Shown here: positions 40,985 to 58,022 of the stretch, piece by piece
How positions within the stretch are numbered: position 1 is the first letter of the stretch
Layout of the letters: every line of letters starts with the position of its first letter
Assembly: GCF_014207985.1 (NCBI RefSeq)
Contig: NZ_JACHMI010000001.1
Span: 1,161,001 to 1,225,000 of the forward strand
Source: Nonomuraea rubra
GTDB taxonomy: Bacteria > Actinomycetota > Actinomycetes > Streptosporangiales > Streptosporangiaceae
Direction of reading: 5' to 3'
DNA: 64,000 nt
The notes under the pieces: generated by a model
Told to the model about the DNA's origin: nothing
The model's input: the letters and a program-made list of their open reading frames with translations, nothing else
Database searches by the model: none
Made by a program: the position numbers and the translations under genes

Positions 40985-40987
40985 GGA

Positions 40988-42105: not shown

Positions 42106-43314
42106 ATGACTACAGGGGTCGCTGTGGCTGCCACGCCCGCTTCTGCTTCCGTCGAAACACCCGATCTCGATCCCGCCTTCGCCCTGCACAGGGGAGGCAA
42201 GATCGAGATCCGCTCCACGGTTCCCGTCCGCGACGCCGACGACCTGTCGCTCGCGTACACGCCCGGCGTCGCCCGGGTCTGCACCGCCATCGCCGACCAG
42301 CCCGCGCTGGCCGACGACTACACCTGGGTCTCCAACGTGGTCGCCGTCGTCTCCGACGGCACCGCGGTGCTCGGCCTCGGCGACATCGGCCCGTCGGCCG
42401 CCATGCCGGTCATGGAGGGCAAGGCGCTGCTGTTCAAGGAGTTCGCGGGCGTCGACGCCGTGCCCATCTGCCTCGACTGCACCGACGTCGACGGGCTCGT
42501 CGAGACCGTGGTGCGCCTGGCGCCCTCGTTCGGCGGCATCAACCTCGAGGACATCAGCGCCCCCCGCTGCTTCGAGATCGAGGACCGGCTGCGCGACCTG
42601 CTCGACATCCCGGTCTTCCACGACGACCAGCACGGCACCGCGATCGTGGCGCTGGCCGCCCTGCAGAACGCCGCCCGCCTGACCGGCCGCACGCTGGGCG
42701 ACCTGCGGGCCGTCGTGGCCGGCGCGGGCGCGTCCGGCGTCGCGGTCACCCGCATCCTGCTGGAGGCGGGCATCGGCGACATCGCGGTCTCCGACTCCAA
42801 GGGCATGATCTACGAGGGCAGGGAGGGCCTCAACCCGGTCAAGCAGGCGCTGGCCCGCGACACCAACCGGGCGGGTCACACCGGCTCCACGGAGGAGGCG
42901 CTGGCGGGCGCCGACCTGTTCCTGGGGCTGTCCGGGTCCACGGTCCCTGAGCAGGCGATCGCGTCCATGGCGCCCGGCGCCATCGTGTTCGCGCTGTCCA
43001 ACCCGACGCCGGAGGTGCACCCCGACGTGGCCGCCAGGCACGTCAGCGTGGTGGCCACCGGGCGCTCCGACTTCCCCAACCAGATCAACAACGTGCTGGC
43101 CTTCCCCGGCGTGTTCAGGGGAGCCCTCGACGTGCGGGCCACCGCGATCACCGAGAACATGAAGGTGGCCGCGGCCAACGCGCTGGCGGGGGTGGTCGGT
43201 GACGACCTCTCGGCGACGTACATCATCCCGAGCCCGTTCGACGAGCGCGTCGCGCCCGCCGTGACGGCCGCCGTGGCCGCCCAGGCCCGGGCGGACGGGG
43301 TCGCGCGCGTCTAG
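42106..43314 (+). CDS. NAD(P)-dependent malic enzyme
   Basis: 402 aa from ATG 42106; the frame is open to an ATG at 41992 with no family similarity upstream, so the start is uncertain. Domain motifs: YTPGVARVC (catalytic Tyr), GLGDIGPSAAMPVMEGK, the metal-binding EDISAPRCFEIE and FHDDQHGTAIV, then the nucleotide site VAGAGASGVAV. It converts malate to pyruvate and CO2. The dinucleotide preference is not clear. Confidence 0.93.
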   Translation: MTTGVAVAATPASASVETPDLDPAFALHRGGKIEIRSTVPVRDADDLSLAYTPGVARVCTAIADQPALADDYTWVSNVVAVVSDGTAVLGLGDIGPSAAMPVMEGKALLFKEFAGVDAVPICLDCTDVDGLVETVVRLAPSFGGINLEDISAPRCFEIEDRLRDLLDIPVFHDDQHGTAIVALAALQNAARLTGRTLGDLRAVVAGAGASGVAVTRILLEAGIGDIAVSDSKGMIYEGREGLNPVKQALARDTNRAGHTGSTEEALAGADLFLGLSGSTVPEQAIASMAPGAIVFALSNPTPEVHPDVAARHVSVVATGRSDFPNQINNVLAFPGVFRGALDVRATAITENMKVAAANALAGVVGDDLSATYIIPSPFDERVAPAVTAAVAAQARADGVARV

Positions 43315-43331
43315 CCCTCACGGGCCGTCCT

Positions 43332-43376
43332 GGCGAGCGAGAGAGCCCTTTCCGGGCCCTCGCTCGCCCCTTTTTT
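43332..43376 (+). terminator. Strong intrinsic terminator of the malic enzyme gene
   Basis: GGCGAGCGAG (43332-43341) pairs with CTCGCTCGCC (43359-43368) with an inner GCCC/GGGC, followed by a C2T6 tract at 43369-43376. Confidence 0.93.
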
Positions 43377-43601
43377 ACCGCCCCTCACCAGGTGGTTCTG
43401 CTTTTCGGGTTACATGGGCGTTTCGTGGGTAGTTGAGATCCCCGTCCAGGAGCCAGGGCCCGCTGACCATGCGCAGACGGCCCGGGGTGTGGGATGGAGT
43501 TTGGGTGACCTTTGGGAACTGCCATAAACCCTTTACGCAAGGTGCTATAACAGTAGCTCTCTGTAATGATGTGGGCGCCGACTCCTGTGACGAGGAGAGC
43601 G

Positions 43602-44960
43602 ATGGAACGCGAGCCGAATCGACTGCTGCAGCAGCTCATCGCAGAGGCGGGTTTTTCCCACAAGGGACTGGCCAGGCGCCTCAACGATCTGGGAGCCGCA
43701 CGTGGCACTCCGGGCCTCAAGTACGACCACAGCTCCGTCCTGCGCTGGATCGGGGGTCAGAGGCCGCGCGATCCGGTCCCGTGCCTGCTCACCGAGATCT
43801 TCGCGCTCCGGCTAGGCAGGCCGGTCTCGTCGGAGGACCTGGGCATGCCGGCCGTCATCACACCCCTCGATCTCGGACAGGAGTTCACGCACACCTGGCA
43901 GGAGGGGGTCGCGACCGTGACGGCGCTGTGGCGGGCCGATGTAGAGAGACGGAGGTTCCTGATCGACTCGACGTTCGCGATAGGAGCAGGCTCTGTTGGA
44001 GCCGTACGCTGGCTGACATCGCCCTCTGAGGGGCGCCCGAGCGGCATGGGGACGCGGCGGGTCGGCCGCGCCGACATCGCCGCCATCCACGAGGTCACCC
44101 GCTCGTTCGGTGAGCTCGACAACCGCTTCGGCAGCGGACGCGTCCGCTCGTCCGTGGTCAAATACCTCGACACCGCCGTCTCCCCCCTGCTCAAGGACGG
44201 CTCGTACGGCGAGTCCACCGGCAGGCAGCTGGCCGCCGCGGCCTCGGAGCTGACCCGCCTGGCGGGGTGGATGGCCTACGACATGGAGCAGCACGGCCTC
44301 GCCCAGCGGTACCTGATCCAGGCCCTGCGCCTGGCCAGGGGCGCCGACGACCAGACGCTGGGCGGCGAGATCCTGGCCGGCATGGCGCACCAGGCCATCT
44401 ACATGGGCCAGCCGGCCCACGCCCTCGACCTGGCCAGGGCCGCCCAGATGGCGGCCCGCAAGGCCGGGGTGAAGACTCTCCTGGCCTCCGCGCACGTCCT
44501 GGAGGCCCACGCGCACGCCGGTCTGGGCGACGCCGGATCCTGCGGCCACGCCCTCCACGAGGCCGAGTGCGCCTTCGATGCCCGCAAGCCCGCCGAGGAG
44601 CCCAAGTGGCTCAGCTACTTCGACGAGGCCTACCTGTCCGCCAAGTTCGCCCACTGCTTCCGCGACCTCGGGGAGGGGGAGCGGGTCGTGCGCCAGGCGC
44701 GGCGCTCGCTCGACATGGACTCCCGGTACGTGCGGGGGCGCATGTTCAACCTGTCGCTGCTGGCGGCCGGGCTGCTGCAGTGCGGTGAGCTGGAGGAGGC
44801 GTGCACGGCCGCGGCCGGCGCGCTGGCGCTGGCCGCCGAGCTCCAGTCGGCGCGGTCGCGGTCGTACGCGGCCGATCTGCGGCGGCGGCTGGAGCCGTAC
44901 AAGAACGAGCGGCCGGTGGCGGCGCTGCGCGAGCGCACGCGCGAGCTCACCGCCGTGTGA
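43602..44960 (+). CDS. HTH-TPR transcriptional regulator (NsdA-like)
   Basis: 452 aa from ATG 43602 with GAGGAGAG just upstream. An N-terminal helix-turn-helix-like region (about 5-80) contains the conserved GLARRLNDLGAARG and YDHSSVLRWIGGQRPRDP. A hydrophobic patch TFAIGAGSVGAV (about 130) and a long series of TPR-like helices (about 190-430) follow. The pattern matches actinobacterial regulators of differentiation such as NsdA. It immediately precedes the protease array in a convergent orientation; regulation of the array is possible but not shown. Confidence 0.8.
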   Translation: MEREPNRLLQQLIAEAGFSHKGLARRLNDLGAARGTPGLKYDHSSVLRWIGGQRPRDPVPCLLTEIFALRLGRPVSSEDLGMPAVITPLDLGQEFTHTWQEGVATVTALWRADVERRRFLIDSTFAIGAGSVGAVRWLTSPSEGRPSGMGTRRVGRADIAAIHEVTRSFGELDNRFGSGRVRSSVVKYLDTAVSPLLKDGSYGESTGRQLAAAASELTRLAGWMAYDMEQHGLAQRYLIQALRLARGADDQTLGGEILAGMAHQAIYMGQPAHALDLARAAQMAARKAGVKTLLASAHVLEAHAHAGLGDAGSCGHALHEAECAFDARKPAEEPKWLSYFDEAYLSAKFAHCFRDLGEGERVVRQARRSLDMDSRYVRGRMFNLSLLAAGLLQCGELEEACTAAAGALALAAELQSARSRSYAADLRRRLEPYKNERPVAALRERTRELTAV

Positions 44961-44969
44961 TCCCTGTGG

Positions 44970-44994
44970 TGGGCCCGGGGCACGCCCGGGCCCA
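44970..44994. terminator. Bidirectional terminator hairpin
   Basis: TGGGCCCGGG (44970-44979) pairs perfectly with CCCGGGCCCA (44985-44994) with a 5-nt loop, between the convergent TPR regulator and first protease-fold gene. Confidence 0.8.
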
Positions 44995-45002
44995 ACGCGG
45001 GG

Positions 45003-46547
45003 TTACTTGAGGAGCTCGCCGTTCGGGCCGACGATCTTCTTCGTCTCGGCGTAGTTCGCCTTGTTGTAGACGTCGGCGGTCTCGCCGTCGAAGATGGCCG
45101 AGCTGATGTAGTCGATCCGGTCGTTGCCGTCGTTGTCGGCGAAGACGCTGGTCACGCCGTTGACGTAGCCGGTGCGCTTGCTGTTGTTGTACTTCATGAG
45201 CCACGGGCCGCCGTCGGCGCCCCACGTCATGGAGCACTTGAGCACCTGGTGGGTCTCGACCTTGAACATGTTGACCTGCACGCTCTTCGTGCCGGTCTTG
45301 CCCGTGCACCACTTGGGGGTGACGCCGGTGAACGGCCTGTCGCCGTCGGGGTGCGGGGCGCTCGGGTAGCCGAAGACGGTCACCTGCTGGCCGAGCGGCT
45401 GGTTCCAGGCGAAGCCCTGGCCGCCGACGACGTCGCCGAGGCGGCCGAGGTCCTTGGCCAGGCCGATGTAGTAGTGGTCGCGGAAGTAGCGGACCGTCTT
45501 GCCTGCCTTCACCCACTGCTTGATGTAGTAGCGGGTCTCGAACCACGCGGTCTCGTTGCCGTTGGCGTCCTTGGTGGCGGTGAGCTTGCCGAGGAACTTG
45601 CCGTCGCCCTTCTCGGCCGTGAGCTTCTTGAACTCCTCCTGGCTGATCGGGTTCGGGCCGGCCTGCTCGTACTGCTCGCCGTTGACGTCGCTCGCGGTGT
45701 CCTTCGGCGCCTTGCCGTACGCGGACTCGGTGACCTCGACCTTGGTCAGGATCTTCTCGCCCGTGTAGTTGTGCGCGACCTTCTCCGGCGTGACGTCGAA
45801 GTCCTTCGACCAATACGGCCCCGCGGGCCCGTACTTGTCGAACCCGGCGTCGTACTCTTCCTTCTTGATCTCTTCGTGCTTGACCCACTTGTCGCCGCCC
45901 CAGGCGTGGAACTCGCTCTTGACGACCTCCTTGGAGCCCGTCAGCGCGAAGCCGTTGTGCACCGCGACGAAGGCGTAGTCGCCGTCGTAGTCGTCGTAGG
46001 TGTCGAGGTCGTAGGCGGTGAAGGCGTAGGCGCCGACGTAGACGCCCCAGGGCGCCTTGCCCTGGTAGTAGCCCGGCACGAAGATCCACTTGCGGTAGAC
46101 CTGGTCCTTGCCGTTCTCGAACACGCAGTGGCCGGCCGTGGCGACCAGGTTGCGGTTCCTGGACTGGATCGAGGTGGCCGAGCACCAGCGGTAGTGGCCC
46201 GACTTGTCGAGGAAGAAGACCTTGCCGATCGTCTTCGGCAGGTTGACGTTCTTGCTCGTGCCGGCCTTGGGGGCGGTGGTCGGGCCGGTCATGCCGGGCT
46301 TGCCGTCAGGCACGCCCTTGCTGCCCGAGCTGACGACCTTCGGTACGTCCTTGGCGTCCAGGTTGTACTGCGTGGCCTTCCGGAGGGCGGCTCCGTTGGA
46401 GTCGAGCCAGAAAGCGGCGGCACCGTACGCGTCGGCCGGCTTGGGGAGGAGGTCTTCCGACTCCCAGGACGGGGCGGCAGTGGCGGGCGAGGCGAGTACG
46501 GCGGCGCTCAGGCCGGCGGCGGCGAGGGGGATGAGCAGGCGCTTCAC
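45003..46547 (-). CDS. Secreted trypsin-fold protein 1, Ser replaced by Asp, with insert domain
   Basis: 514 aa from GTG 46547 (GGAG 6 nt upstream); the frame extends seven codons more. Signal peptide KRLLIPLAAAGLSAAVLASPATA. His140 (TAGHC) and Asp190 (GDYAF) of a chymotrypsin-type triad are present, but the nucleophile motif reads TWGADGGPWL with Asp445 where Ser is required. Four Cys (122, 141, 414, 438) could form two disulfides. An insert of about 165 residues (about 202-366) separates the Asp strand from GRLGDVVGGQGFAWNQP. The protein is predicted to be exported and non-proteolytic. The most diverged of the three insert-bearing members. Confidence 0.88.
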   Translation of the reverse strand: MKRLLIPLAAAGLSAAVLASPATAAPSWESEDLLPKPADAYGAAAFWLDSNGAALRKATQYNLDAKDVPKVVSSGSKGVPDGKPGMTGPTTAPKAGTSKNVNLPKTIGKVFFLDKSGHYRWCSATSIQSRNRNLVATAGHCVFENGKDQVYRKWIFVPGYYQGKAPWGVYVGAYAFTAYDLDTYDDYDGDYAFVAVHNGFALTGSKEVVKSEFHAWGGDKWVKHEEIKKEEYDAGFDKYGPAGPYWSKDFDVTPEKVAHNYTGEKILTKVEVTESAYGKAPKDTASDVNGEQYEQAGPNPISQEEFKKLTAEKGDGKFLGKLTATKDANGNETAWFETRYYIKQWVKAGKTVRYFRDHYYIGLAKDLGRLGDVVGGQGFAWNQPLGQQVTVFGYPSAPHPDGDRPFTGVTPKWCTGKTGTKSVQVNMFKVETHQVLKCSMTWGADGGPWLMKYNNSKRTGYVNGVTSVFADNDGNDRIDYISSAIFDGETADVYNKANYAETKKIVGPNGELLK

Positions 46548-46641
46548 GGGAGGCTCCACAGTTGTCAAAAAGGGTGTAAAGACCCTATCGACCCTTCAGT
46601 CACTCTGGTAAGGGGAATGCTCAGATTTCTCATAGAAAGGC

Positions 46642-46672
46642 CAAAGGGCCCGGCGGAGAGCCGAGCCCTTTG
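46642..46672 (-). terminator. Terminator of trypsin-fold gene 2
   Basis: CAAAGGGC (46642-46649) pairs with GCCCTTTG (46665-46672), with an inner GGC/GCC; on the minus strand the hairpin is followed by GCCTTTCT. Confidence 0.75.
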
Positions 46673-46723
46673 GGTGAAGCATGTGAACGATGACTAGGTC
46701 GTCGTTCTGTCCAGCAGCGAGAA

Positions 46724-48310
46724 CTACGGGATCAGCTTGCCGGACCACGAGGCCGAAGCGGCCTTGTAGATCGCGGCGGTCTCACCGTCGAAGTACGGCG
46801 AGGTGATCGTGTCGTAGCGCTTGTTGCTGTCGGTGTCGGCGATGAGGCTGGTGACACCGTTGACGTAGCCGAGACGCTTGCTGTTGCTGTACTTGTACAG
46901 CCACGGCGCACCGTCGTAACCGGCGGTCACGGTGCACTTGAACGACATCTGCTCCTCGACCTTCTTGGACGGGATGCGGAGGACGTTCTTGGCCGTCTTG
47001 CCGTAGCACCACTTCGGCGTGACACCGGTGAACGGCTTGTTGCCGTCCAGGTGCGGGCCGAAGGGGTAGCCGAAGGTGCGGACGTACTTGCCGGTGGGCT
47101 GGTTCCAGGCGAAGCCCTGGCCACCGACGTTGTCACCGAGGCGGCCAACGCTCTTCACGTTGTGCTCGACGACGTAGTAGTCCTCGACCCAGTACTTCAC
47201 CTGAGCCGTGGTCTTGATCCACTTCTTGACGTAGAACTCCTGCTTGAACCAGGCAGTCTTCGCCTCGTTGGTGGACAGGGTGCCGAGGTACTTGCCGTCA
47301 CCCTTCTGCGCCACCAGGGAGTCGTACTCCTCCTTGGAGATCGCAACCTTCTGGCTGGGCACGCGGTCGCCGTTGTCGAAGCCGACCTTGGCCGCGTTCC
47401 ACACAGCCTCGGTGACCTCGATGCCAACGACCTTGACACCCTTGGTGGGGCCCTCGCCCTTGTAGTACTCGTCGATGTTGCCGAGGTTCACATCGGCGGG
47501 CTTGGCAACCGTCTCGACCTTGGGGTCAGCAGGGGCCGACTTGTACGGGCCAGCCTCGCCGTACTTGTCGTAGCCCGCCGCGAACTCCTCGGCGGTGATC
47601 GGGGTCTCCTTGATGTACCCCTTGCCACCCTTGGCGATGTGCGCCTTGTACTCGCTCGGGGTGACCTTCGTGGACTGGTTGGCGACGCCGCCGATGCCGT
47701 CGTAGACGGTCACGAAGGCGTAGTCGCGGTCGAAGTCCTCGTAGACGTCGAAGTCGTAGTGGGTGAAGGCCTGCTTACCCACGTAGATGCCCCAAGGAGC
47801 CTTGCCCTGGTAGTAGCCCGGCACGAAGACCCAGCGGGAAACGACCTCGTCGTTGCCGGCGATGTCGTAGACGCAGTGACCGGCCGTGGCGACCAGGTTG
47901 CGGTACTGCGACTGGATCGAGGTGCCCGAGCACCAGTAGAGCGAGCCGTCACGGTACTCGAAGAAAACCTTACCGATGGTCTTCGGCAGGTTCACGTTCT
48001 GCACCTTGGCGGTGCTCTTCTTCTCCTCGCCGATGGGGGCGGTCGAGCCCGGCTTGGTGTCGGCGCTGTAGCCACCACCGGAGGAGATCTTCTCAACCTC
48101 GAGAGCGTCGGGGTTGAACGCCACGGCCTTCTTCAGCGCCGCGTTGTCCGACTTGGTCCAGAAGTCGATGACCTCGGCGGCCTGCGCCGCGGTCTTGGCC
48201 AGGTCGTCCTTGGCAACGTCAGTGTCGGCCTGGGCGGTGCTGGCGAGACCAGCAGCCAGCAGACCAGTGGCCAGAATGGCGCCACCGGCCGGGAGGAGGA
48301 TGCGCTTCAA
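46724..48310 (-). CDS. Secreted trypsin-fold protein 2, Ser replaced by Asp, with insert domain
   Basis: 528 aa from TTG 48310, preceded by AAGGAG; an upstream in-frame ATG at 48352 lacks a ribosome site. Signal peptide ends at AQA (about residue 28). His145 and Asp196 are intact; the nucleophile region is TAGYDGAPWL, with Asp466 and also Gly to Ala after it. The insert (about 205-385) contains ETPITAEEFAAGYDKYG and a loosely similar AISKEEYDSLVAQKGDGK, perhaps an internal repeat, and the Trp/Tyr-rich FYVKKWIKTTAQVKYWVEDYY. Closest to protein 3. Confidence 0.88.
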   Translation of the reverse strand: MKRILLPAGGAILATGLLAAGLASTAQADTDVAKDDLAKTAAQAAEVIDFWTKSDNAALKKAVAFNPDALEVEKISSGGGYSADTKPGSTAPIGEEKKSTAKVQNVNLPKTIGKVFFEYRDGSLYWCSGTSIQSQYRNLVATAGHCVYDIAGNDEVVSRWVFVPGYYQGKAPWGIYVGKQAFTHYDFDVYEDFDRDYAFVTVYDGIGGVANQSTKVTPSEYKAHIAKGGKGYIKETPITAEEFAAGYDKYGEAGPYKSAPADPKVETVAKPADVNLGNIDEYYKGEGPTKGVKVVGIEVTEAVWNAAKVGFDNGDRVPSQKVAISKEEYDSLVAQKGDGKYLGTLSTNEAKTAWFKQEFYVKKWIKTTAQVKYWVEDYYVVEHNVKSVGRLGDNVGGQGFAWNQPTGKYVRTFGYPFGPHLDGNKPFTGVTPKWCYGKTAKNVLRIPSKKVEEQMSFKCTVTAGYDGAPWLYKYSNSKRLGYVNGVTSLIADTDSNKRYDTITSPYFDGETAAIYKAASASWSGKLIP

Positions 48311-48585
48311 GGTAACTCCTTGCGCTGTCGTGGAACGCCTCTTGCGTCCCATGCGTCAGTAAAGGGATAGCCAGGAACATACAGTGTCGATCTTGAGATC
48401 CGGTAGCCGCTTTGGTCGGAAAGATGGGGACAAGACGGCCGTGATCGTTCTGTGATGTTTAGATGGCTGATGCGCAGGAGCTGAGGAAAGCGGGCCTCTT
48501 TACCGTTTGCCCAGATCAACATAAGGAAGTTGTCAGTGGGACTCGCGGGGCTGAGGCACCCTCCTGGTTCCGCTCGACCAGGCGA

Positions 48586-48601
48586 TGTGACGCAGATCAC
48601 A
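48586..48601. promoter_or_regulatory. CRP-like palindrome upstream of trypsin-fold gene 2
   Basis: TGTGACGCAGATCACA is an exact TGTGA-N6-TCACA match, about 280 nt before the gene 2 start codon. Confidence 0.65.
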
Positions 48602-48669
48602 TCAGGTTGATGGCACCGTCTGGACGTCCCGTGCGTCCAAACGCGTTCACATTCGGCGGGAAACGCAGA

Positions 48670-48694
48670 AGGGCCCGGCAGGATGCCGGGCCCT
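48670..48694 (-). terminator. Terminator of trypsin-fold gene 3
   Basis: Perfect 11-bp stem AGGGCCCGGCA / TGCCGGGCCCT with a GGA loop; followed on the minus strand by TCTGCGTTTCC. Confidence 0.85.
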
Positions 48695-48745
48695 CCGCTG
48701 GCAACGGTTACACGAACGGTCTAAGCCCGGTCGCTATCCGTTACT

Positions 48746-50350
48746 TCAGACGATCTTGCCGGACCACGAGGCCGCGGCGGCCTTGTAGACGGTGTTCGTC
48801 TCGCCGTCGAAGTACGGCGACGAGATGTAGTCCACGCGGCCGTTGCCGTCCTGGTCGTTGAAGGTGCTGGTGACACCGTTCACGTAGCCGAGACGCTTGC
48901 TGTTGCTGTACTTGTACAGCCACGGGCCACCGTCGGCACCCTCGGTCATGGCGCACTTGAGGGCGACGTGCTCCTCGATCTTCTTGGCAGCCGAACCCAC
49001 CAGCTTCTTCGTGGTGTTGCCGTAGCACCACTTCGGAGTCACGCCGGTGTAGTTCTTGTTGCCGTCGGGGTGAGCAGCGGCCGGGTAGCCGAACACGCGC
49101 ACGGCCTTGCCGGTCGGCTGGTTCCAGGCGAAGCCCTGGCCGCCGACGTTGTCGCCGAGACGACCAGCGTCCTTGCCGGCGATGTCGACGACGTAGTAGT
49201 CCTCGACCCAGTACTTCATCTGAACGGTGGTCTTGACCCACTTCTTGATGAAGAACTGCGTCTTGAACCAGGCGACCTCGGTCTTCTTGTCGTCACCCAG
49301 CTGGGCGCGGACCTCGCCCATGAACTTGCCGTCGCCCTTGGCGGCCTTCAGCTCGTCGTACTGCTCCTTGCTGATGGGCACCTCGGTGCTCAGGCGCTCG
49401 AACTTGTCGCCGTTGTCGAAGCCCGTACCAGCCGCGGTGTACTGCGACTTGTAGACCTCCGCACCAGTGAGCTGGACACCCTTGGTGGGGCCCTCGCCCT
49501 TGATGTAGGCGTCGACGTTGCTGGCCGTCACGTCGGCAGGCTTGGCGACCGTCTCGACCTTCGGGTCGGCGGCCTTCGACTTGAAGGGGCCCGCCTCGCC
49601 GTACTTGTCGTAGCCGGCCTCGAACTCTTCCTTCGTGATCGGCGTTTCCTTGACGAAGCCGACGCCGCCCTTGGCGACGTGCGACTTGTACTCGCTCGGG
49701 GTGACCTTGGTGGTCTTGCCCGAGACGTGGACGCCGTTGTACACGGTCACGAACGCGTAGTCGCGGTCGTAGTCCTCGTAGACATCGAAGTCGTAGTGGG
49801 TGAAGGCCTGCTTACCCACGTAGATGCCCCACGGAGCCTTGCCCTGGTAGTAACCGGGGACGAAGACCCACTTGCCGAGGACGTCCGTGTTGGCGGCCGT
49901 GTCGTACACGCAGTGACCGGCCGTGGCGACCAGGTTGCGGTACTGCGACTGGATCGAAGTGGCGGAGCACCACTTCTTCTCGCCCTTGCTGTTGACGAAG
50001 AAGACCTTGCCGATGGTCTTCGGCATGTTGACGTTCTGGACCTTCGTGGAGGCCTTCTTCTCCTGACCGATCGGAGCGGTCGAGCCCGGCTTGGTGTCCG
50101 AGCTGTAGCCGCCCTTGCTCTGCAGCTTGGCGACGTCAGTCTTGTCCCAGACGTTCGACTCGGTAGCGGCCTTGAGGGCAGCACCGTTGTTCTCCGCCCA
50201 GAACTGAGCGATGGCCTTGGCGTTGGCCGCGCTCGTCGCCATGGCGTCCTTGGCGACGGTGTCGTCGGCCTGGGCGGTGCCGGCGAGGCCGGCGGCCAGG
50301 AGGCCGGTGGCCAGGAGGGCGCCACCGGCGGGGATGAGGATGCGCTTCAA
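48746..50350 (-). CDS. Secreted trypsin-fold protein 3, Ser replaced by Asp, with insert domain
   Basis: 534 aa from TTG 50350 with AAGGAG 8 nt upstream, the same start context as gene 2. Signal peptide ends AQA. His146 and Asp197 are retained, while the nucleophile motif is TEGADGGPWL with Asp473. The insert (about 206-390) is alignable throughout with that of protein 2, including GEGPTKGV and YWVEDYYVV. The conserved C-terminal segment YSNSKRLGYVNGVTS and FDGET are shared with 1, 2 and 4. Export without peptidase activity is predicted. Confidence 0.88.
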   Translation of the reverse strand: MKRILIPAGGALLATGLLAAGLAGTAQADDTVAKDAMATSAANAKAIAQFWAENNGAALKAATESNVWDKTDVAKLQSKGGYSSDTKPGSTAPIGQEKKASTKVQNVNMPKTIGKVFFVNSKGEKKWCSATSIQSQYRNLVATAGHCVYDTAANTDVLGKWVFVPGYYQGKAPWGIYVGKQAFTHYDFDVYEDYDRDYAFVTVYNGVHVSGKTTKVTPSEYKSHVAKGGVGFVKETPITKEEFEAGYDKYGEAGPFKSKAADPKVETVAKPADVTASNVDAYIKGEGPTKGVQLTGAEVYKSQYTAAGTGFDNGDKFERLSTEVPISKEQYDELKAAKGDGKFMGEVRAQLGDDKKTEVAWFKTQFFIKKWVKTTVQMKYWVEDYYVVDIAGKDAGRLGDNVGGQGFAWNQPTGKAVRVFGYPAAAHPDGNKNYTGVTPKWCYGNTTKKLVGSAAKKIEEHVALKCAMTEGADGGPWLYKYSNSKRLGYVNGVTSTFNDQDGNGRVDYISSPYFDGETNTVYKAAAASWSGKIV

Positions 50351-50433
50351 GGGAACTGCTCCTTGCTCTGTCGTGGGTCGCAACTTGCGTCCCATGCGTC
50401 AGTAAAGGGATAGCAAGGAACATAGCGTGGTGA

Positions 50434-50444
50434 TCTCCGCAGGT
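50434..50444 (-). promoter_or_regulatory. Shared 11-bp motif upstream of trypsin-fold gene 3
   Basis: ACCTGCGGAGA on the minus strand, 84 nt before the gene 3 start; identical copies lie upstream of genes 5 and 6. Function unknown. Confidence 0.4.
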
Positions 50445-50619
50445 GAAACCCGCTTTGCGTGATCCGGTATGCCCCCCTTTCGCCGTGACCTTTCCGTGAC
50501 CTGTCAGAGACGTTTGCGCGTTGTGATCGTCAGGTCACGTTTTCGCAGGGTATGAGGGGGTTGTTGCTGCTGGGACGAAAGTGCCGTTAGCGGGCTGACA
50601 CATAACGTAGTCAGTAAAA

Positions 50620-50635
50620 CGTGACTCAGATCACA
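50620..50635. promoter_or_regulatory. CRP-like site upstream of trypsin-fold gene 3
   Basis: CGTGACTCAGATCACA, one mismatch to TGTGA-N6-TCACA and sharing 14 of 16 bases with the gene 2 site. It lies about 277 nt before the gene 3 start, nearly the same distance as for gene 2. Confidence 0.6.
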
Positions 50636-50763
50636 GGAACCAGATGGGAACCTGCTCCGTCTAACTTGGCCTGATCCTCACAGGAGATCTTCAGGTTCGG
50701 CTCTGAAGGCGTCCGGAGAGCCGTGCCCATCGGCGTTCTGGGGCGTCGCCCGGCGCATGAAAC

Positions 50764-50790
50764 GGCCCGCCGACGCATCGTCGGCGGGCC
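50764..50790 (-). terminator. Hairpin downstream of the DUF4096 gene
   Basis: Perfect 12-bp stem GGCCCGCCGACG / CGTCGGCGGGCC with a CAT loop, just after the stop of the minus-strand gene at 50803; followed by GTTTCAT. Confidence 0.75.
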
Positions 50791-50802
50791 GGTGAGGTGT
50801 GG

Positions 50803-51249
50803 TCAGGCTCCCTTGGGCTTGACCGTCTCGCCCAGAAGGACCTGGAGGCTGGCGAGCACCGCAGTGTCCTTGGCCGGGTCCTTCGCGGTGGGCAGGTGGG
50901 GCGTGGCGCTGGGGGAGCCGGGTGGGTGGCTGCGGATGAGGTCGAGCTGCGCCGGGCCGAGCCGGCCTGTACGGGCCGGTGCGCGGTCGCCGGGGTCGTC
51001 GGCGTGCAGTGCCAGGGTCAGGCGCTGCCAGGTGCCGTCCGCCAGCCAGCGGCGGTGGCGCTTGTAGATGGTGACCCAGCAGCCGTACCGCTCGGGGAGG
51101 TAGCGCCATCGGACGCCGGTGCGTGCCTGGTAGAGGAGGCCGTTGATCACTGTGCGGTCGTCGGTCGTGCGGCCGGCGCGGACGCTGGTCTGGGGGAGGA
51201 GGGTGGCGACCCTGGCCCATTCGGCGTCTGTCAGATCATCGCGACGCAT
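50803..51249 (-). CDS. DUF4096 protein, orphan N-terminal part of an IS5-type transposase
   Basis: 148 aa from ATG 51249. The first 80 residues (LTDAEWARVATLLP, DRTVINGLLYQARTGVRWRYLPERYG, TIYKRHRRWLADGTWQRL) are the DUF4096 DNA-binding domain that starts IS5/IS1647-type transposases. The remaining 65 residues do not look like a transposase, and no catalytic DDE part follows. No terminal inverted repeats are evident. It is either a decayed IS remnant or a recruited small regulator, standing alone between trypsin-fold genes 3 and 4. Confidence 0.7.
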   Translation of the reverse strand: MRRDDLTDAEWARVATLLPQTSVRAGRTTDDRTVINGLLYQARTGVRWRYLPERYGCWVTIYKRHRRWLADGTWQRLTLALHADDPGDRAPARTGRLGPAQLDLIRSHPPGSPSATPHLPTAKDPAKDTAVLASLQVLLGETVKPKGA

Positions 51250-51552
51250 GCGCCCATCGTGACAAGGCAAACACGGTCTGTCAGTTGAACAAAGAAAGAT
51301 CTTCGTTCCGTGGAGGGAAGATCCGGCTGTGCGGCATATCGGTGCCGCCCCGCGGGCGTACGGCGGCAGCGCTGCGGCGAGAGGAGCGAGCGGGATTGCT
51401 GGGGGATCGAAGGAGGGCGGAGCCCCTTGGGAGGCGCTGTCTGGAGCTGTGCCGGCGCGAAGCGCCCTCCGGCGGAAGGCCGTGCGTGGAACCCCCGGAA
51501 ACAGCAAGGCGAGGGCCTCGGGATCGAGGCCCTCGCTTTCCCCTGGTAGGGC
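51250..51552. other. Gap between the DUF4096 gene and trypsin-fold gene 4
   Basis: 303 nt without a gene. Near 51297-51324 GATCTTC and GAAGATC form an inverted repeat with a 12-nt loop. The terminator of gene 4 lies at 51509-51536. The middle (about 51330-51500) is GC-rich with several short inverted repeats and nothing I can name; it could be IS debris. Confidence 0.5.
51509..51536 (-). terminator. Terminator of trypsin-fold gene 4
   Basis: Perfect 12-bp stem GCGAGGGCCTCG / CGAGGCCCTCGC with a GGAT loop; followed on the minus strand by TTGCTGTTTCC. Confidence 0.85.
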
Positions 51553-52716
51553 TTACTTGTACAGCTCGCCGTTCGGGCCCACGATCTTCCCGGACCACAC
51601 GTTCTTGGCCGCGTTGTACACCGCGGCGGTCTCACCGTCGAAGTACGGCGAGGTGATGTAGTCGATCCTGTCGTTGGCGTCCTGGTCGGCGAACGTGCTG
51701 GTGACGCCGTTCACGTAGCCGAGGCGCTTGGCGTTGCTGTAGTTCAGGAGCCACGGGCCGCCGTCGTAGCCCGGGGTCACGGCGCACTTGAGGCCGACGT
51801 GCTCCTCGATCTTGAGCCAGGAGGCCCCGACGGTCTTGGCGGTGGTGTTGCCGTAGCAGTGCTTCGGCGTCACGCCGCTGTACGGCTTGTTGCCGTCCGG
51901 GTGCGGGGCGGCCGGGTAGCCGAAGGCACGGACCGGCTTGCCGGTGGGCTGGTTCCAGGCGAAGCCCTGGCCGCCGACGTTGTCGCCGAGGCGGCCCGCG
52001 TCCTTCGACAGCAGGATGTAGTAGCGGCCGCCCCAGGCGCGCTTCGGGCCGGTGAAGCGCTCGAAGTCCTTGCGGTCCACCTGCTTGACACCGTTCGAGG
52101 TGATGCCGTTGTACACGGTGACGAACGCGTAGTCGCGGTCGTAGTCCTCGTAGACGTCGAAGTCGTAGTGGGTGAAGGCCTGCTTGCCCACGTAGATGCC
52201 CCACGGAGCCTTGCCCTGGTAGTAGCCGGGGACGAAGACCCACTTGTCCATCGTGGCGCTGTTGCTGTCGGTGTCGTAGACGCAGTGGCCGGCCGTGGCG
52301 ACCACGTTGCGGTAGTTCGACTGGATGGAGGTGCCCGAGCACCAGCGGAACTTGCCGTGGCCGTCGACGAAGAACACCTTGCCGACGGTCTTGGGGAGGT
52401 TGACGTTCTGGGCCCTGCCGGTCGACTTCGACTCGCCGGTCGGCGCCGTGGTGCCGGGGCTGCCGTCGGGGCTGTAGCCGCCCTTGGAGACGACCTTCCG
52501 AACCTCGTTCGAGTCCCACGTGTACTGGGTCGCGGACCGGAGCGCGGCGCCGTTCGAGGCCAGCCAGAAGGAGGCGACGGAGATCGCGGAGGAGTTGTTG
52601 CGGGCCATCGGGTCGTGGGCGACGTCGCCATCGGCCTGCGCCGTGCCGGACAGGCCGGCGGCCAGCAGACCGGTGGCCAGGATGGCGCCGCCGGCGGGGA
52701 GAAGGATTCGCTTCAA
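51553..52716 (-). CDS. Secreted trypsin-fold protein 4, Ser replaced by Asp, compact
   Basis: 387 aa from TTG 52716 (GGAG 6 nt upstream). Signal peptide ends AQA. His144 and Asp195 are present; the nucleophile motif is TPGYDGGPWL with Asp318. It lacks the long insert: only about 35 residues lie between the Asp strand and GRLGDNVGGQGFAWNQP. It therefore shows the core fold of the Asp-type group without the extra domain. N-terminal and C-terminal parts are close to proteins 1-3, and the end GPNGELYK is nearly that of protein 1. Confidence 0.88.
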   Translation of the reverse strand: MKRILLPAGGAILATGLLAAGLSGTAQADGDVAHDPMARNNSSAISVASFWLASNGAALRSATQYTWDSNEVRKVVSKGGYSPDGSPGTTAPTGESKSTGRAQNVNLPKTVGKVFFVDGHGKFRWCSGTSIQSNYRNVVATAGHCVYDTDSNSATMDKWVFVPGYYQGKAPWGIYVGKQAFTHYDFDVYEDYDRDYAFVTVYNGITSNGVKQVDRKDFERFTGPKRAWGGRYYILLSKDAGRLGDNVGGQGFAWNQPTGKPVRAFGYPAAPHPDGNKPYSGVTPKHCYGNTTAKTVGASWLKIEEHVGLKCAVTPGYDGGPWLLNYSNAKRLGYVNGVTSTFADQDANDRIDYITSPYFDGETAAVYNAAKNVWSGKIVGPNGELYK

Positions 52717-52876
52717 GGTAGCTCCAGGTTGCGCTGACATGAGGCGCCTCATGCACCTCCATAACTCAGCAAACGGACAGCCCGGAACCTACAGGTTTGA
52801 CAATGGTCATGCGCGTTACCGGTAGATCCTGTCAGCGTTCCAAGGCGCGCCGTGACCGTACCGAGACAGAGAAGCC

Positions 52877-52899
52877 GCTGATCACTTGTCGTGATCAGC
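52877..52899 (-). terminator. Terminator of trypsin-fold gene 5
   Basis: Perfect 9-bp stem GCTGATCAC / GTGATCAGC with a TTGTC loop, 14 nt after the stop; followed by GGCTTCTC. Confidence 0.75.
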
Positions 52900-52906
52900 C
52901 GGTTGC

Positions 52907-52922
52907 TATGACTTAGGTCACA
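52907..52922. promoter_or_regulatory. CRP-like site upstream of trypsin-fold gene 4
   Basis: TATGACTTAGGTCACA, one mismatch to TGTGA-N6-TCACA; on the minus strand its centre TGTGACCTAAGTCA resembles the sites of genes 2 and 3. It overlaps the gene 5 stop codon and is about 190 nt before the gene 4 start. Confidence 0.45.
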
Positions 52923-54022
52923 TTTGGCAGGGTGTTGAGCCCCGCGGCGCGTCGGTAGACCTCGCCCGTGGTGGTGTCGAAGTACGGGGCCGACACCGAG
53001 TCGTAGCGGCCCTTGGCGTCCCTGTTCCAGGTCAGGCTGTTGACGCCGGCCAGGCTGCCGAGCCTGCGGTTGTCGTCGTAACCGATCACCCAGGGGCCGC
53101 CGCTGGCGCCCGGGCTGAAGTCGCACGGCGTCAGCTCGACGCCCTTCTGCAGGTCGCGGCCGGGGGCGACGGTGAAGCGGGTGTTGCCGGGCAGGCACTT
53201 CTGCAACGTCTTGCCGTCGTACGGGTGCGACCCGTCGGGCTGCTGGCCCGCCGGGTAGCCGAACGCGGTCACGGTGTACGTCCCCGGCTTCTTGTTCAGC
53301 TCCAGCCCGAGGCCGCCCACGTTGTCCTGGAGCCGGCCGATGTCCTGCATGACGTACCCGCCGTCCTTGGCGGCCCAGGCGAAGCCGCGGTGGACGGTCA
53401 CGAACGCGTAGTCGTAGTCGTAGTCGCCCTTGCCCGACCAGTCCTCGTGCAGGCTGATCGAGGCGCCCACGTAGATGCCCTCGGGCGCCTCGCCGTTCGG
53501 GTCGGGGGTCGGCACGAAGATCCAGTAGTCGGCGGGCTTGGCCGTGCGCGAGTCGTACGCGCAGTGCCCGGCGGTGGCCACCACGCTGCGGTTCTTGGCC
53601 GCGACCGCGGCGGCGGAGCACCAGTACTCCTTGTCCCCGAACCGGAAGAAGACCTTGCCCATGGTGTTCGCGGCGTTGCCCTTGCGCGGCGGTGCCGGGT
53701 CGACGCCGGCCGCGGCGGTCGTCCGCTTCACGGCGGTGGTGGCCGCGGCGGGACCCGCGGCGGCGCCCGACGAGGTCGTCGAGGCGGCACCGGAACCGGG
53801 CGTGGCCGGGGTGGACAGGTCGGTCTTCTTCAGGCGGTCGGGCCGCCAGTAGTCGGCGACCCGCTTCACGTCCGCGAGCGTCTTGGCCAGCGGGACGGCG
53901 TACACCTTGCTGGGGGCGACGGCGGCGTGGGCGGCTTGGGCGGCGATCCCCGTGAAGGCAGGCACGATCAGCAGCGCGCTGCTGAGGGCAGCGGCCACGA
54001 AGTGCCTGGCTCGGGGGATCAT
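52913..54022 (-). CDS. Secreted trypsin-like serine peptidase 5, complete triad
   Basis: 369 aa from ATG 54022. Signal peptide to about residue 33 (HAA), then an Ala/Thr/Ser/Pro-rich linker (about 68-112). The triad is complete: His153 (TAGHC), Asp204 (DYDYAF) and Ser307 in SPGASGGPWV. Cys135, 154, 276 and 300 match the disulfide positions of its paralogs. The compact core lacks the insert. Probably an active extracellular endopeptidase related to V8/glutamyl-endopeptidase-like actinobacterial enzymes; specificity unknown. Confidence 0.88.
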   Translation of the reverse strand: MIPRARHFVAAALSSALLIVPAFTGIAAQAAHAAVAPSKVYAVPLAKTLADVKRVADYWRPDRLKKTDLSTPATPGSGAASTTSSGAAAGPAAATTAVKRTTAAAGVDPAPPRKGNAANTMGKVFFRFGDKEYWCSAAAVAAKNRSVVATAGHCAYDSRTAKPADYWIFVPTPDPNGEAPEGIYVGASISLHEDWSGKGDYDYDYAFVTVHRGFAWAAKDGGYVMQDIGRLQDNVGGLGLELNKKPGTYTVTAFGYPAGQQPDGSHPYDGKTLQKCLPGNTRFTVAPGRDLQKGVELTPCDFSPGASGGPWVIGYDDNRRLGSLAGVNSLTWNRDAKGRYDSVSAPYFDTTTGEVYRRAAGLNTLPNVT

Positions 54023-54186
54023 GAAATGCCTTTCTTGGGGTCGTAAGGGTGGATTTTTCCAGATGTACAGACGGTATTGCAGCTCGGATAGAGATTCGTT
54101 ACCTGATCAAGCGTGCATCGTGAACTATAAGGACACCGTCAGCCGAACGCCCCTGATACGTGTAAATGATCATTAGAGCGGCCATG

Positions 54187-54197
54187 TCTCCGCAGGT
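54187..54197 (-). promoter_or_regulatory. Shared 11-bp motif upstream of trypsin-fold gene 5
   Basis: ACCTGCGGAGA on the minus strand, 165 nt before the gene 5 ATG; the similarity to the gene 6 copy extends a few bases on both sides. Confidence 0.4.
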
Positions 54198-54314
54198 CAG
54201 AGGCCGGTTCGCGAGTGATCCGCGCGCACGGAATTCGCGCCCATTCGCGGTCGCATTCGCACGCTCCAAGTGGCCTACGCCACGCCGGCAAGTGACCCCC
54301 ATTCCACCGAAGGA

Positions 54315-54345
54315 TGGCCCCGGCTCCCTGGGGGAACCGGGGCCA
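54315..54345 (-). terminator. Terminator of trypsin-fold gene 6
   Basis: TGGCCCCGG (54315-54323) pairs perfectly with CCGGGGCCA (54337-54345), 14 nt after the stop in transcript direction. Confidence 0.8.
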
Positions 54346-54358
54346 GGGGTGCCGTCGA

Positions 54359-55483
54359 TCACCGCCAGTTGCCGGTCCAGCGGTTGGCTGCGGCCTTGTA
54401 GACCTTGTAGGTGTCGGTGTTGAAGTACGGCGACGAGATGTGGTCGTAGCGGTCGTTGCCGTCGGTGTCCCACGCGACGCTGTTGACGCCGACCAGGTAG
54501 CCGGTCCGCGACGCGCTCTTGTAGTTGTAGATGAACGGCCCGCCGCTCGCGCCGGCGGTGAAGGCGCACTTGAAGCCGATGTGCTCCTGCAGGTTGTACT
54601 TCTTGGCCTCGGGCATCGCCTTGGTCTTGCCGTAGCAGTACTTCATCGTGCGGCCGGTGAACGGCTTGTCGCCGTCCGGGTGCTCACCGGCGGGGTAGCC
54701 GAACGAGAACACGTTCAGCTTGGTGCTCCGGTTCCAGGTGAAGCCCTGGCCGCCGACGTTGTCGCCGAGGCGGCCGACGTTCTTCACGGTCCACTTCCAG
54801 CGGCCGCCGACCTTCTCCCAGTTGACCTTGATGCCGTTGAAGACGTTGACGAACGCGTAGTCGTAGTCGTAGTCCTCCTTCACGACGAAGTCGTCGTGCG
54901 CGTTGAACGTCTTGGCGGCGTAGATGCCGTAGGGAGCCTTCCCGTTCCAGACCTTGTCGCCGTCCCAGTACGACGGGATGAAGATCCAGTTGTCGTAGAA
55001 GGTGTTCTTCTTGGTGTCGTACACGCAGTGGGCGGAGGTCGCCACGAGGTTGCGGTACTTGCCCTGCACCGAGCTGGCCGAGCAGTAGCGCCAGTTCTTC
55101 GGGTTGCGGGGGTCGGCCTTCGGCAGCGTGAAGAAGACGCGGCCGACCGTGTTCGGCAGGTTGACGTGCTTGCTCTTCTTGGACGAGGTCTTCTCCGCGC
55201 CGATCGGCGGAACGGAGCCGGCCGGGCCGTCGGGGGCGTCGTTGCTGCCCTTGACGCCCTTGGTGCTCAGGTCGACGCCGTCGTCGTGGTCGGTGGCCAG
55301 CTTCACACGGTCCGGCGTCCAGAACTGGACCGCCTGCTCAGCCGGGGTCGCCGAGTTCTTCGAGACGACGTCCGAGGGTGCGGTCGTCGCGTTGGCCGCG
55401 GCGCCGCTGACCATGCCCGCCGCCAGCCCGATGGCCACGAGGCCGGCGAGGGGGATCGCGATGCGCCTTGCTCGGGAATACAT
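54359..55483 (-). CDS. Secreted trypsin-like serine peptidase 6, complete triad
   Basis: 374 aa from ATG 55483 with GAGAGGAG 5 nt upstream. Signal peptide to about residue 31. The triad is complete: His152 (in TSAHC, unlike the TAGHC of the others), Asp208 (DYDYAF) and Ser313 in TAGASGGPFI. Cys134, 153, 283 and 306 correspond to the paralog pattern. A slightly longer loop precedes the His (LPKADPRNPKNWRY). It shares GRLGDNVGGQGFTWN with the Asp-type proteins, so it links both groups. Probably active and extracellular. Confidence 0.88.
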   Translation of the reverse strand: MYSRARRIAIPLAGLVAIGLAAGMVSGAAANATTAPSDVVSKNSATPAEQAVQFWTPDRVKLATDHDDGVDLSTKGVKGSNDAPDGPAGSVPPIGAEKTSSKKSKHVNLPNTVGRVFFTLPKADPRNPKNWRYCSASSVQGKYRNLVATSAHCVYDTKKNTFYDNWIFIPSYWDGDKVWNGKAPYGIYAAKTFNAHDDFVVKEDYDYDYAFVNVFNGIKVNWEKVGGRWKWTVKNVGRLGDNVGGQGFTWNRSTKLNVFSFGYPAGEHPDGDKPFTGRTMKYCYGKTKAMPEAKKYNLQEHIGFKCAFTAGASGGPFIYNYKSASRTGYLVGVNSVAWDTDGNDRYDHISSPYFNTDTYKVYKAAANRWTGNWR

Positions 55484-55660
55484 GGAGCTCCTCTCAGCTT
55501 TCGGCGGCCCAGAGCGGGGTACTGCGCCCCGGTGGGCCAGGAAAACGATCGGAACGTTAATGAACGGCTCGATCCGGCGGCCAGGAATCGACGTGAAAAA
55601 GCATGGGCCGGTTCCATTCCGTTATAGAAATAGCAAATAAGCATGTATTCAAGATTGGCA

Positions 55661-55671
55661 TCTCCGCAGGT
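55661..55671 (-). promoter_or_regulatory. Shared 11-bp motif upstream of trypsin-fold gene 6
   Basis: ACCTGCGGAGA on the minus strand, 178 nt before the gene 6 ATG, followed by an AT-rich stretch with a TATAAC -10-like hexamer near 55621-55626. Confidence 0.4.
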
Positions 55672-55767
55672 CGGCGCCTGGTTTGAATTTCTCTCGTCAC
55701 AACGGTAACGGCAATTATCAAACGCCACTCCCTGTCAAACCGAGCGATGTTCTGGTTAGCATGAGCC

Positions 55768-57201
55768 ATGGACCCTCGCATCCCCTGCCTCATCGGCATC
55801 GCGCAGCGCACCATTCGCGAGCAGCCCGGCCCTGAACCGCTCGACCTCTGGGAGTCGGTGGCGCGTGAGGCCGCCGGCGACGCGCGGCTGCCCGTCGATC
55901 GGCTCGATTCGATCCAGCTCGTCTGGACCGACTCCTGGTACTACGACTCGCCCGTCGGCCGCCTCGCCGAACGCCTCGGCGCCGCGCCGCGCCACCAGGT
56001 CTACTCCAAGGTCGGCGGTACGGCCCCGCACCTGCTCATCGGCGCCGCGGCCGCCGCGATCGCCGCGGGCGAGCTGGACTCGGCGCTGGTCGCCGGTGCC
56101 GAGGCGCTCGCCACGCGCAGGGCGTACAGGAAGGCGGGCGAGCACGCGCCGTGGAGTCACCCCGCCGACCCCAAGCCCCCGTACGGGTGGGAACGGCCGC
56201 CGCACCCGTCGGCGCTCGCGCACGGACTGTTCCTGCCGGTGCACACCTATCCGATCATGGAGACCGCGCGGCGGGCGGCGGCCGGGACCACGATCGAGGA
56301 GGAGATGCGCGAGCGGGCGCGCATCATGGCGCCGATGACCGAGGTCGCCGCCGCGAACCCGTACGCCTGGCGCAGGGCCGCCCGCACCCCCGGCGAGCTC
56401 TCCGGCGGCCGCTTCGTCGGCTGGCCCTACACCACGGACACGGTGGCCGTGCTGGAGGTGGACCAGGCCGCGGCCGTCATCCTGGCCAGCTCGCGGCTGG
56501 CCGACCGGCTGGGGGTTCCGCCGGAACAGCGGGTCTACCTGCGGGGATGGGCGTACGCGGAGGACACCTGGGAGGTCGCGACGCGGCCAGCGCTCGGCGC
56601 CTCGCCCGCCATCGCCCGCGCCGCCGAGGCCGCCTTCGAGCGGGCCGGGCTCGGCCTGGACGACATGAACGCGCTGGACCTGTACAGCTGCTTCGCGATC
56701 GCGCTGCGGCAGGCGTGCGACGCCATCGGCCTCGACCCGCTCGACCCGCGCGGGCTCACCGTGACCGGCGGGCTGCCGTACGCGGGCGGGCCGGCCAGCG
56801 ACTACGTGCTGCACTCGACGGCGACGATGGCCGGGCTGCTGCGGGCGCAGTCGGGGCACGGGCTGGTGAGCGGGGTGGGGATGCATCTGACGAAGCACAC
56901 GTACGCGGTGTGGTCGAGCGAGCCGGGCGGGCGGCTGGGGGATGTCGCGCCGGTGCACGTCGCGAAGGAGGTGCCGCTGGTGGCCTCGTACGAAGGGGTG
57001 GGGGTGGTGGCGGGGTACACGGTGGCGCACGGGCGGGACGGTGAGGCCGAGAAGGGGTTCCTGGTCGTGGACGTGCCCGGGGGGAGGGCTTACGCGGTGG
57101 TGGAGGAACGGGCGCTGCTGGTGGAGGCCGAGGGGCGGGAGCTGGTGGGGGAGGAGGTGCGGGTGTCCAGCGATGGGAAGCTCAATGTGGCTGTCTGGTG
57201 A
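55768..57201 (+). CDS. Thiolase-fold acetyl-CoA acetyltransferase-like protein lacking the usual Cys
   Basis: 477 aa. The N-terminal thiolase fold is recognisable in GAAAAAIAAGELDSALVAGAEAL and the C-terminal half in AFERAGLGLDDMNALDLYSCFAIALRQ and GGLPYAGGPASDYVLHS. The segment that should hold the nucleophilic Cys reads YSKVGGTAPHLL, and the second Cys region reads GVGMHL. An extra C-terminal domain of about 80 residues resembles the OB-like domain of SCP-x-type mycobacterial thiolase-like proteins. Role probably in binding or transfer of acyl-CoA; true thiolase activity is doubtful. Divergent from peptidase 6. Confidence 0.8.
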   Translation: MDPRIPCLIGIAQRTIREQPGPEPLDLWESVAREAAGDARLPVDRLDSIQLVWTDSWYYDSPVGRLAERLGAAPRHQVYSKVGGTAPHLLIGAAAAAIAAGELDSALVAGAEALATRRAYRKAGEHAPWSHPADPKPPYGWERPPHPSALAHGLFLPVHTYPIMETARRAAAGTTIEEEMRERARIMAPMTEVAAANPYAWRRAARTPGELSGGRFVGWPYTTDTVAVLEVDQAAAVILASSRLADRLGVPPEQRVYLRGWAYAEDTWEVATRPALGASPAIARAAEAAFERAGLGLDDMNALDLYSCFAIALRQACDAIGLDPLDPRGLTVTGGLPYAGGPASDYVLHSTATMAGLLRAQSGHGLVSGVGMHLTKHTYAVWSSEPGGRLGDVAPVHVAKEVPLVASYEGVGVVAGYTVAHGRDGEAEKGFLVVDVPGGRAYAVVEERALLVEAEGRELVGEEVRVSSDGKLNVAVW

Positions 57202-57248
57202 CGTAAAGCAGGGGCAAATTCTGTGATCGTGTGACTACTATCTGGTGT

Positions 57249-57264: not shown

Positions 57265-57282
57265 CGCACGGACGCTGGAGTC

Positions 57283-57976: not shown

Positions 57977-58022
57977 ACTGAGTTGCAAGGGCGCAAGCCG
58001 GCACTACTCGGCTAGGAACGTC

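Follow-up and report, generated by a model that had tools for sequence, protein, structure and literature searches.

Predicted secreted trypsin-fold paralogs with aspartate at the nucleophile position in Nonomuraea rubra: probable pseudo-proteases with a changed S1-pocket rim

The window, a stretch of 64,000 nucleotides from Nonomuraea rubra (contig NZ_JACHMI010000001.1, positions 1,161,001 to 1,225,000), contains an array of six trypsin-fold paralogs at positions 45003-55483. All six lie on the minus strand in the list of open reading frames and are labeled genes 1 to 6 (w1 to w6) by coordinate. Genes 1-4 encode Asp at the nucleophile position 195 (chymotrypsin numbering), and genes 5 and 6 encode Ser. 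What is new here is the association of Asp195 with a bulky residue at position 216, on the rim of the S1 pocket. The products of genes 1-4 are very probably not peptidases. They are probably exported pseudo-proteases of the bacterial S1 type nearest AL20 and Anisep, in which the pocket would be plugged and Asp195 ion-paired with His57, and binding is their likely function.

In the proposed mechanism, the Asp195 carboxylate would pair with protonated His57 and lie partly in the oxyanion hole. Asp102 and Ser214 would hold this pair, fixing the former active site in a stable conformation, and Phe216 would fill the S1 entrance. The proteins would not cut; instead, the groove or its surrounding surface would bind a peptide or protein, in a mode akin to the groove binding of UmbA without the proteins being UmbA. 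The partner may belong to the same secreted set, as the gene 5 protein, the gene 6 protein, or a propeptide of either, with gene 5 serving as the constant serine protease of the locus.

Catalytic residues and gene features

Chymotrypsin numbers 57, 102, 193, 195, 214, and 216 were assigned via alignment to 3wy8 (Anisep) and 3cp7 (AL20), together with the standard chymotrypsin numbering. The alignment places Asp at position 195 of genes 1-4, as do the predicted gene 4 model and its structural matches. That model adopts the chymotrypsin double beta-barrel fold, with AL20 and Anisep as its best structural relatives. The codon at 195 is GAC in w1-w4 and AGC in w5-w6, so alignment and codons confirm the division into four Asp and two Ser proteins made in the initial annotation. 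The triad residues His57 and Asp102 are invariant in all six paralogs, and this earlier observation also holds in the alignment. Of the features of S1 peptidases, the chymotrypsin fold is present, and the Ser nucleophile is present in genes 5-6 and absent from genes 1-4. With Asp at 195, genes 1-4 very probably do not encode serine peptidases, in agreement with the first proposal. An essential catalytic residue replaced in a gene that is maintained defines an S1-type pseudo-protease, and genes 1-4 combine both features.

Gene 1 (45003-46547, 514 aa, GTG start) has the motif GADGGP, with its Asp195 codon at 45213-45215. Gene 2 (46724-48310, 528 aa, TTG start) has GYDGAP, with the codon at 46913-46915; gene 3 (48746-50350, 534 aa, TTG start) has GADGGP, with the codon at 48932-48934; and gene 4 (51553-52716, 387 aa, TTG start) has GYDGGP, with the codon at 51763-51765. 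Genes 1, 2, and 3 carry a long insert between the Asp102 strand and a GRLGD motif, and gene 4 is without it. Gene 5 (52913-54022, 369 aa), which is serine-type, and gene 6 (54359-55483, 374 aa) share the motif GASGGP, with Ser195 codons at 53102-53104 and 54545-54547, and both products are predicted to be active.

The starts of w1-w4 are codons 8, 15, 16, and 13 of their longest open reading frames, each with a GGAG-like stretch upstream, and the Asp residue numbers first reported agree with these GTG and TTG starts. All six N-termini resemble signal peptides when read by eye, and export is predicted on this basis. A propeptide of about 70 residues is presumed, with the prodomain at residues 41-110 or so, and the C-termini of w1-w4 lie 60-70 residues past the GxDGGP motif. 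The Pfam Trypsin model scores above its cut-off for w5 only; at E up to 1, trypsin models alone match, and NCBIfam has no match for the six paralogs. The w3 insert folds confidently within an otherwise poor model (pLDDT block means of 87-98 over residues 231-400), with alternating strands and helices. A structure search with the whole w3 model, inside which the insert was searched, lists trypsin-fold proteases as matches.

A DxDxNxRxD loop lies directly after Ser214 (w4 residues 356-364; window 51661-51687, minus strand). It occurs likewise in w1, w2, w3, and w6, is conserved across the Asp and Leu types and most of the Ser types, and is absent from w5 and from the more distant S1 paralogs compared. 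The loop resembles a calcium-binding loop.

The rim of the S1 pocket

A scan for columns that tell 174 Asp rows and 106 Ser rows apart identified, besides 195, position 216 (w4 residue 354; minus-strand codon 51691-51693, derived from the residue number). Phe occupies it in 86% of the Asp rows but in none (0%) of the Ser rows or of the 46 rows from the Leu/Ile clade. Positions 296, 306, and 347 also separate the types outside the propeptide. In the locus sequences, the residue at 216 is bulky in 175/175 Asp types, and among 114 Ser types it is small (mostly Ala, Thr, or Gly) in 102, bulky in 10, and Lys in 2. Every row with Leu, Ile, Asn, Ala, or Gly at 195 likewise has a bulky residue at 216. 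An alignment-free check anchored on motifs, in which 38 of 356 sequences went unmatched, found bulky residues in 164/164 Asp types and, among 99 Ser types, 91 small versus 8 bulky. In S1 proteases, residue 216 lines the S1-pocket entrance, so Phe there should obstruct a P1 side chain.

Distribution and evolution of the nucleophile position

Among the best 120 of 1468 homologs from the w4 search, all 120 have His-Asp-Asp, and all 120 have Phe216. The best 120 of 881 homologs from the w6 search have at position 195 Ser (101), Gly (8), Thr (4), Asp (3), and one each of Asn, Ala, Glu (P0214, whose row is scrambled there), and a gap; some gene 6 relatives have thus lost Ser195. An alignment of 356 members, drawn from 72 loci of named genomes, the window, and four other places of its genome, has Asp in 175, Ser in 114, Leu in 41, Asn in 10, Ala in 4, Ile in 4, Gly in 1, and a gap in 7. 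His-Asp-Asp is found in 173 of these 175 Asp types.

Of 200 genomes sampled from the window's taxonomic family, 82, in 24 of 68 genera, have a match to w4 at E <= 1e-40, with Ser and non-Ser types counted together. Class-wide, 19 of 118 genomes have a match at E <= 1e-10, seven of them (its own genome included) within the window's family. The S1 homologs from other families of the class are His-Asp-Ser in 13/13 distinct cases, and Ser is therefore taken as ancestral. A fourteenth place outside the family (L101) is broken and carries a Leu-type motif.

The nucleophile Ser has been lost repeatedly in this family, and Asp, Gly, Asn, Thr, Ala, Leu, and Ile all occur in its place. On a FastTree phylogeny of 339 rows (17 of the 356 left out, three triad columns removed), the minimum number of changes is at least 15 at position 195, eight at 57, and four at 102. 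All 174 Asp rows of this tree fall in a single clade of 191 rows, whose base has low support (38); the next 180 rows have 90. The w1 and w3 clades are His-Asp-Asp in 41/41 members each, the w4 clade has Asp195 in 39/40, and the w5 clade is His-Asp-Ser in 49/49. The 36 members of the w2 clade have Asp (23), Asn (8), Ala (3), or Ser (2), and the 13 without Asp195 keep Asp102 in 13/13 and His57 in 12/13. The Asp losses in this clade are young. Gene 2 thus behaves differently from genes 1, 3, and 4, and the uniform class of four genes first described is not borne out. Three members of the Asp clade have Ser at 195 again together with a bulky 216: L061:11699-13315 and L084:3191-4753 (both GSSGGPW) and L087:10888-12399 (GYSGAPW).

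A second tree, of 127 rows (117 matches of the w6 search and 10 others), has 11 changes at position 195. Among the w6 relatives, two small clades (P0147/P0148/P0145 and P0186/P0182/P0184/P0187) have Gly and Asp forms next to each other, which indicates that Asp arose at least once more there, and probably twice. The codons fit a path from AGC through GGC or AAC to GAC, which would take two transitions. Asp is mutationally near and may recur partly for that reason; its long conservation still needs an explanation beyond mutational nearness. The nucleophile would have been lost first, with closure of the pocket later.

Constraint and selection

Within the Asp clade (191 sequences, tree length 31.3), parsimony gives two changes at His57, none at Asp102, and one at Ser214, and the median site has 12. 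Position 195 changes nine times, six of these within the w2 clade and none in the w1 and w3 clades. Gly193 and the four Cys are also kept in Asp types. Its sister, the Leu/Ile clade, with 46 sequences and a tree length of 6.7, has six changes at His57, four at Asp102, five at Ser214, and 11 at C299, with a median of 2. The Leu/Ile clade has lost much of the active site, whereas the Asp clade has kept nearly all of it but Ser195 despite a tree length about five times greater. Retention of His and Asp had been read at the outset as a sign of selected function. That argument is strengthened by the contrast with the Leu/Ile clade and weakened by the fact that His57 and Asp102 are mostly kept too where position 195 is Gly, Asn, Thr, or Ala.

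Genes 1-4 are under purifying selection and are maintained. Calculated on the w4 columns only, for species pairs also present in the malic enzyme control, dN/dS for w1-w6 is 0.46, 0.50, 0.35, 0.34, 0.63, and 0.32, and that of the neighboring malic enzyme is 0.27. Because GC-rich third positions probably depress dS, only the comparison with the malic enzyme is used. With the insert columns included, the values are 0.71, 0.79, 0.74, 0.34, 0.64, and 0.34. The initial view that these genes are not decaying is upheld by their values of 0.34-0.50 versus 0.27, by a gene order kept in 26 of 38 loci, and by the fixation of position 195 in the gene 1 and gene 3 clades.

Locus organization

The 346 family genes in 72 loci all lie on one strand within their locus. 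Among 38 Nonomuraea loci with w4, the full order w6-w5-w4-w3-w2-w1 is found in 14, the order from w5 to w1 in 23, and that from w4 to w1 in 26; several of the remaining loci end at contig boundaries. Across 73 stretches compared, the recurrent neighbors are a malic enzyme (46), a 464-aa gene without a Pfam match (40), and a thiolase-like gene (34). Between genes 3 and 4 of the window, and outside the array set, lies an IS4/IS5-family transposase remnant in two overlapping minus-strand frames (50678-51507), with a PF13340 match in the frame at 50803-51507.

The leaders upstream of w2 (~48310-48420), w3 (~50350-50460), and w4 (~52716-52830) look alike by eye, and the stretch is nearly identical between w2 and w3, which suggests shared control or recent copying. 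Rfam gives nothing above its gathering score at 40000-60000, and there is no tRNA in the window.

Herbidospora loci L066, L070, and L072-L076 contain tandem Leu-type copies in which position 57 is Ser or His and position 102 is Asn; a Cys pair is also lost in this clade. Six of these seven loci have five or six such copies and L070, which is cut, has two; each also has a single Asp type, along with one or two of the Ser type. The Leu-type copies appear to be a further kind of pseudo-protease in the family.

Points against a binding role

Several observations weigh against reading genes 1-4 as binding proteins with a locked active site. The ion pair and the filled S1 pocket are deduced from sequence, and the partner is inferred. 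Structure prediction, first suggested as a check, supports the Asp position in gene 4; the gene 3 model is poor (pLDDT 61.7, pTM 0.43), so the reading of genes 1-3 depends on sequence comparison. Where members of the Asp clade have Asn, Ala, or Gly at 195, all but one still keep His57 and Asp102, so retention alone is no proof that Asp195 has a role. Few independent events underlie the association of 195 with 216. Three Asp types among the w6 relatives keep Ala216, and 17 of 101 serine types from the w6 search have Val or Ile at 216, so a bulky residue there need not by itself mean inactivity. Asp types without another family member within 5-10 kb on each side occur at L067, L068, L071, L077, and L091, contrary to the expectation that an Asp type always stands beside a Ser type. 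The array is present elsewhere in four of these five genomes, and a partner encoded next door is thus not general.

Alternative explanations

Genes 1-4 might be decoys that soak up SSI-type (subtilisin-inhibitor-like) inhibitors, their own or foreign, and so shield proteases 5 and 6. An SSI-type gene, identified as PF00720 in the one member tested, occurs in 23 of 73 stretches. In every case it diverges from a head gene of the serine type, which is w5 or a basal Ser member, and it stands beside the head gene in 23 of the 56 loci with enough upstream sequence. The loci are L036, L038-L040, L042, L048, L050, L054-L057, L059-L061, L063, L064, L078-L081, L086, L092, and L093. A canonical inhibitor inserts its P1 residue into S1, but most Asp types carry Phe216 there, which disfavors the decoy role raised initially. 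The window locus has no SSI gene (four matches lie elsewhere in its genome), nor have the 11 loci that lack a Ser type within reach. Decoys are an unlikely explanation. The pairing of the SSI gene with the serine-type head gene points to gene 5 as the probable regulated active protease of the locus.

A similarly unlikely possibility is that genes 1-4 act in trans as propeptides or scaffolds for the folding, maturation, or surface assembly of the gene 5 or 6 protease, with the prodomain as the working part. The presumed prodomain is folded in the gene 4 model (pLDDT 83-92 over residues 41-110), and it differs consistently between Asp and Ser types at positions 67, 69, and 70. However, this role accounts neither for an Asp clade that conserves its triad region nor for the Asp-type singletons.

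Asp-His-Asp triads are at work in the alpha/beta-hydrolase fold, in haloalkane dehalogenases and epoxide hydrolases. An Asp195-His57-Asp102 triad might likewise attack a non-peptide electrophile such as an ester, lactone, epoxide, or halide. The near-invariance of His57, Asp102, Ser214, and Gly193 in the Asp clade, the first three of which are not so kept in the Leu/Ile clade, would suit such an enzyme, as would an Asp195 that took two base changes to reach and then stayed unchanged in the gene 1 and 3 clades. However, the gene 2 clade exchanges Asp for Asn, Ala, or Ser and still keeps His57 and Asp102, so that their retention does not depend on the nucleophile. Phe216 should narrow the pocket, and since the two transitions pass through Gly or Asn, both present in the family, mutation alone can explain the recurrence of Asp. 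To our knowledge, Asp-nucleophile chemistry is not known on the chymotrypsin fold. The three residues occur together in nearly all Asp types, but the chymotrypsin-like gene 4 model means that these proteins are not alpha/beta-hydrolases, whatever their mechanism. It is thus very unlikely that genes 1-4 are Asp-nucleophile enzymes, and equally so that the Asp clade forms a novel class of exported hydrolases or transferases working on non-peptide substrates through an ester intermediate. If it were true, an active Asp triad would be new chemistry on one of the best-studied folds and a chymotrypsin-fold counterpart of the dehalogenases and epoxide hydrolases.

It is highly improbable that genes 1-4 encode UmbA-like parts of a secreted toxin particle. 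According to PMC11062931, UmbA of the Streptomyces umbrella toxin particles has a trypsin-fold domain without a complete triad, and the groove of this domain binds the N terminus of UmbB. A Foldseek search with the gene 4 model lists Umb1 chains at rank 12 (E 9.9e-07), and, with 150 of 391 candidates scored, ALF-repeat (umbC-like) matches exceed the cut-off at three places in the genome, 0.65, 7.05, and 8.95 Mb. The window spans 1.16-1.23 Mb, and among the candidates scored there is no umbC-like gene near it, the nearest ALF place being ~0.5 Mb away; umbB was not sought. Further, the proteins end soon after the GxDGGP motif without a C-terminal lectin domain, the best structural relatives are AL20 and Anisep, and UmbA is absent from matches of the family profile to PDB sequences at E up to 1. 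An umbrella-toxin identity was set aside on the missing umbC-like neighbor and the profile result.

Decaying duplicates without function would fit the looseness of position 195 in the gene 2 clade and the recurrent nucleophile loss, but they are just as improbable given dN/dS values near those of gene 6 and the malic enzyme, a gene order kept across much of the genus, and the conserved Cys and DxDxNxRxD loop.

Significance

The family shows nucleophile loss at several ages. Gly and Asp stand beside Ser in gene 6 relatives, the older Asp clade has a pocket change, and the active site is mostly dissolved in the Leu/Ile clade. The order of events from protease to binding protein becomes testable with natural variants, and the family is a natural test of how proteases become non-enzymes. 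The literature search, covering sources other than subscription journals and preprints, gave no account of the family or of a GxDGGP S1 clade among the matches listed. In the main text of the Planobispora rosea proteome paper (PMC4514598), the sole passage matched by a term search concerns trypsin as a reagent.

Comparison with known systems

Pseudo-proteases of this fold are already known, and the Asp clade is a variant of them. The animal examples are the well-known ones: serine protease homologs (SPH) and vertebrate protein Z are secreted trypsin-fold proteins with a replaced nucleophile, often encoded beside active paralogs. They belong to an unrelated lineage, whereas the present proteins form a single bacterial clade in which Asp is fixed, the S1 rim has changed, and the other triad residues are kept.

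AL20 (3cp7) and Anisep (3wy8) are S1 serine proteases from actinobacteria, which PMC6524800 groups as 'S1D new'. Compared with them, genes 1-4 have Asp for Ser195 and a bulky 216, and genes 1-3 have the long insert in addition. The DxDxNxRxD loop after Ser214 is not visible in AL20 or Anisep in the alignment, and the presumed propeptide is a further difference.

The precedent followed for a bacterial trypsin-fold pseudo-protease is UmbA, which, according to PMC11062931, has several paralogs per genome, two of which showed no activity. Like UmbA as described there, genes 1-4 encode actinobacterial trypsin-fold proteins, here predicted to be secreted, with an incomplete triad and several paralogs. 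UmbA has a C-terminal lectin domain and sits with umbB and umbC in that account, whereas the proteins of genes 1-4 are without a lectin domain and keep His57 and Asp102.

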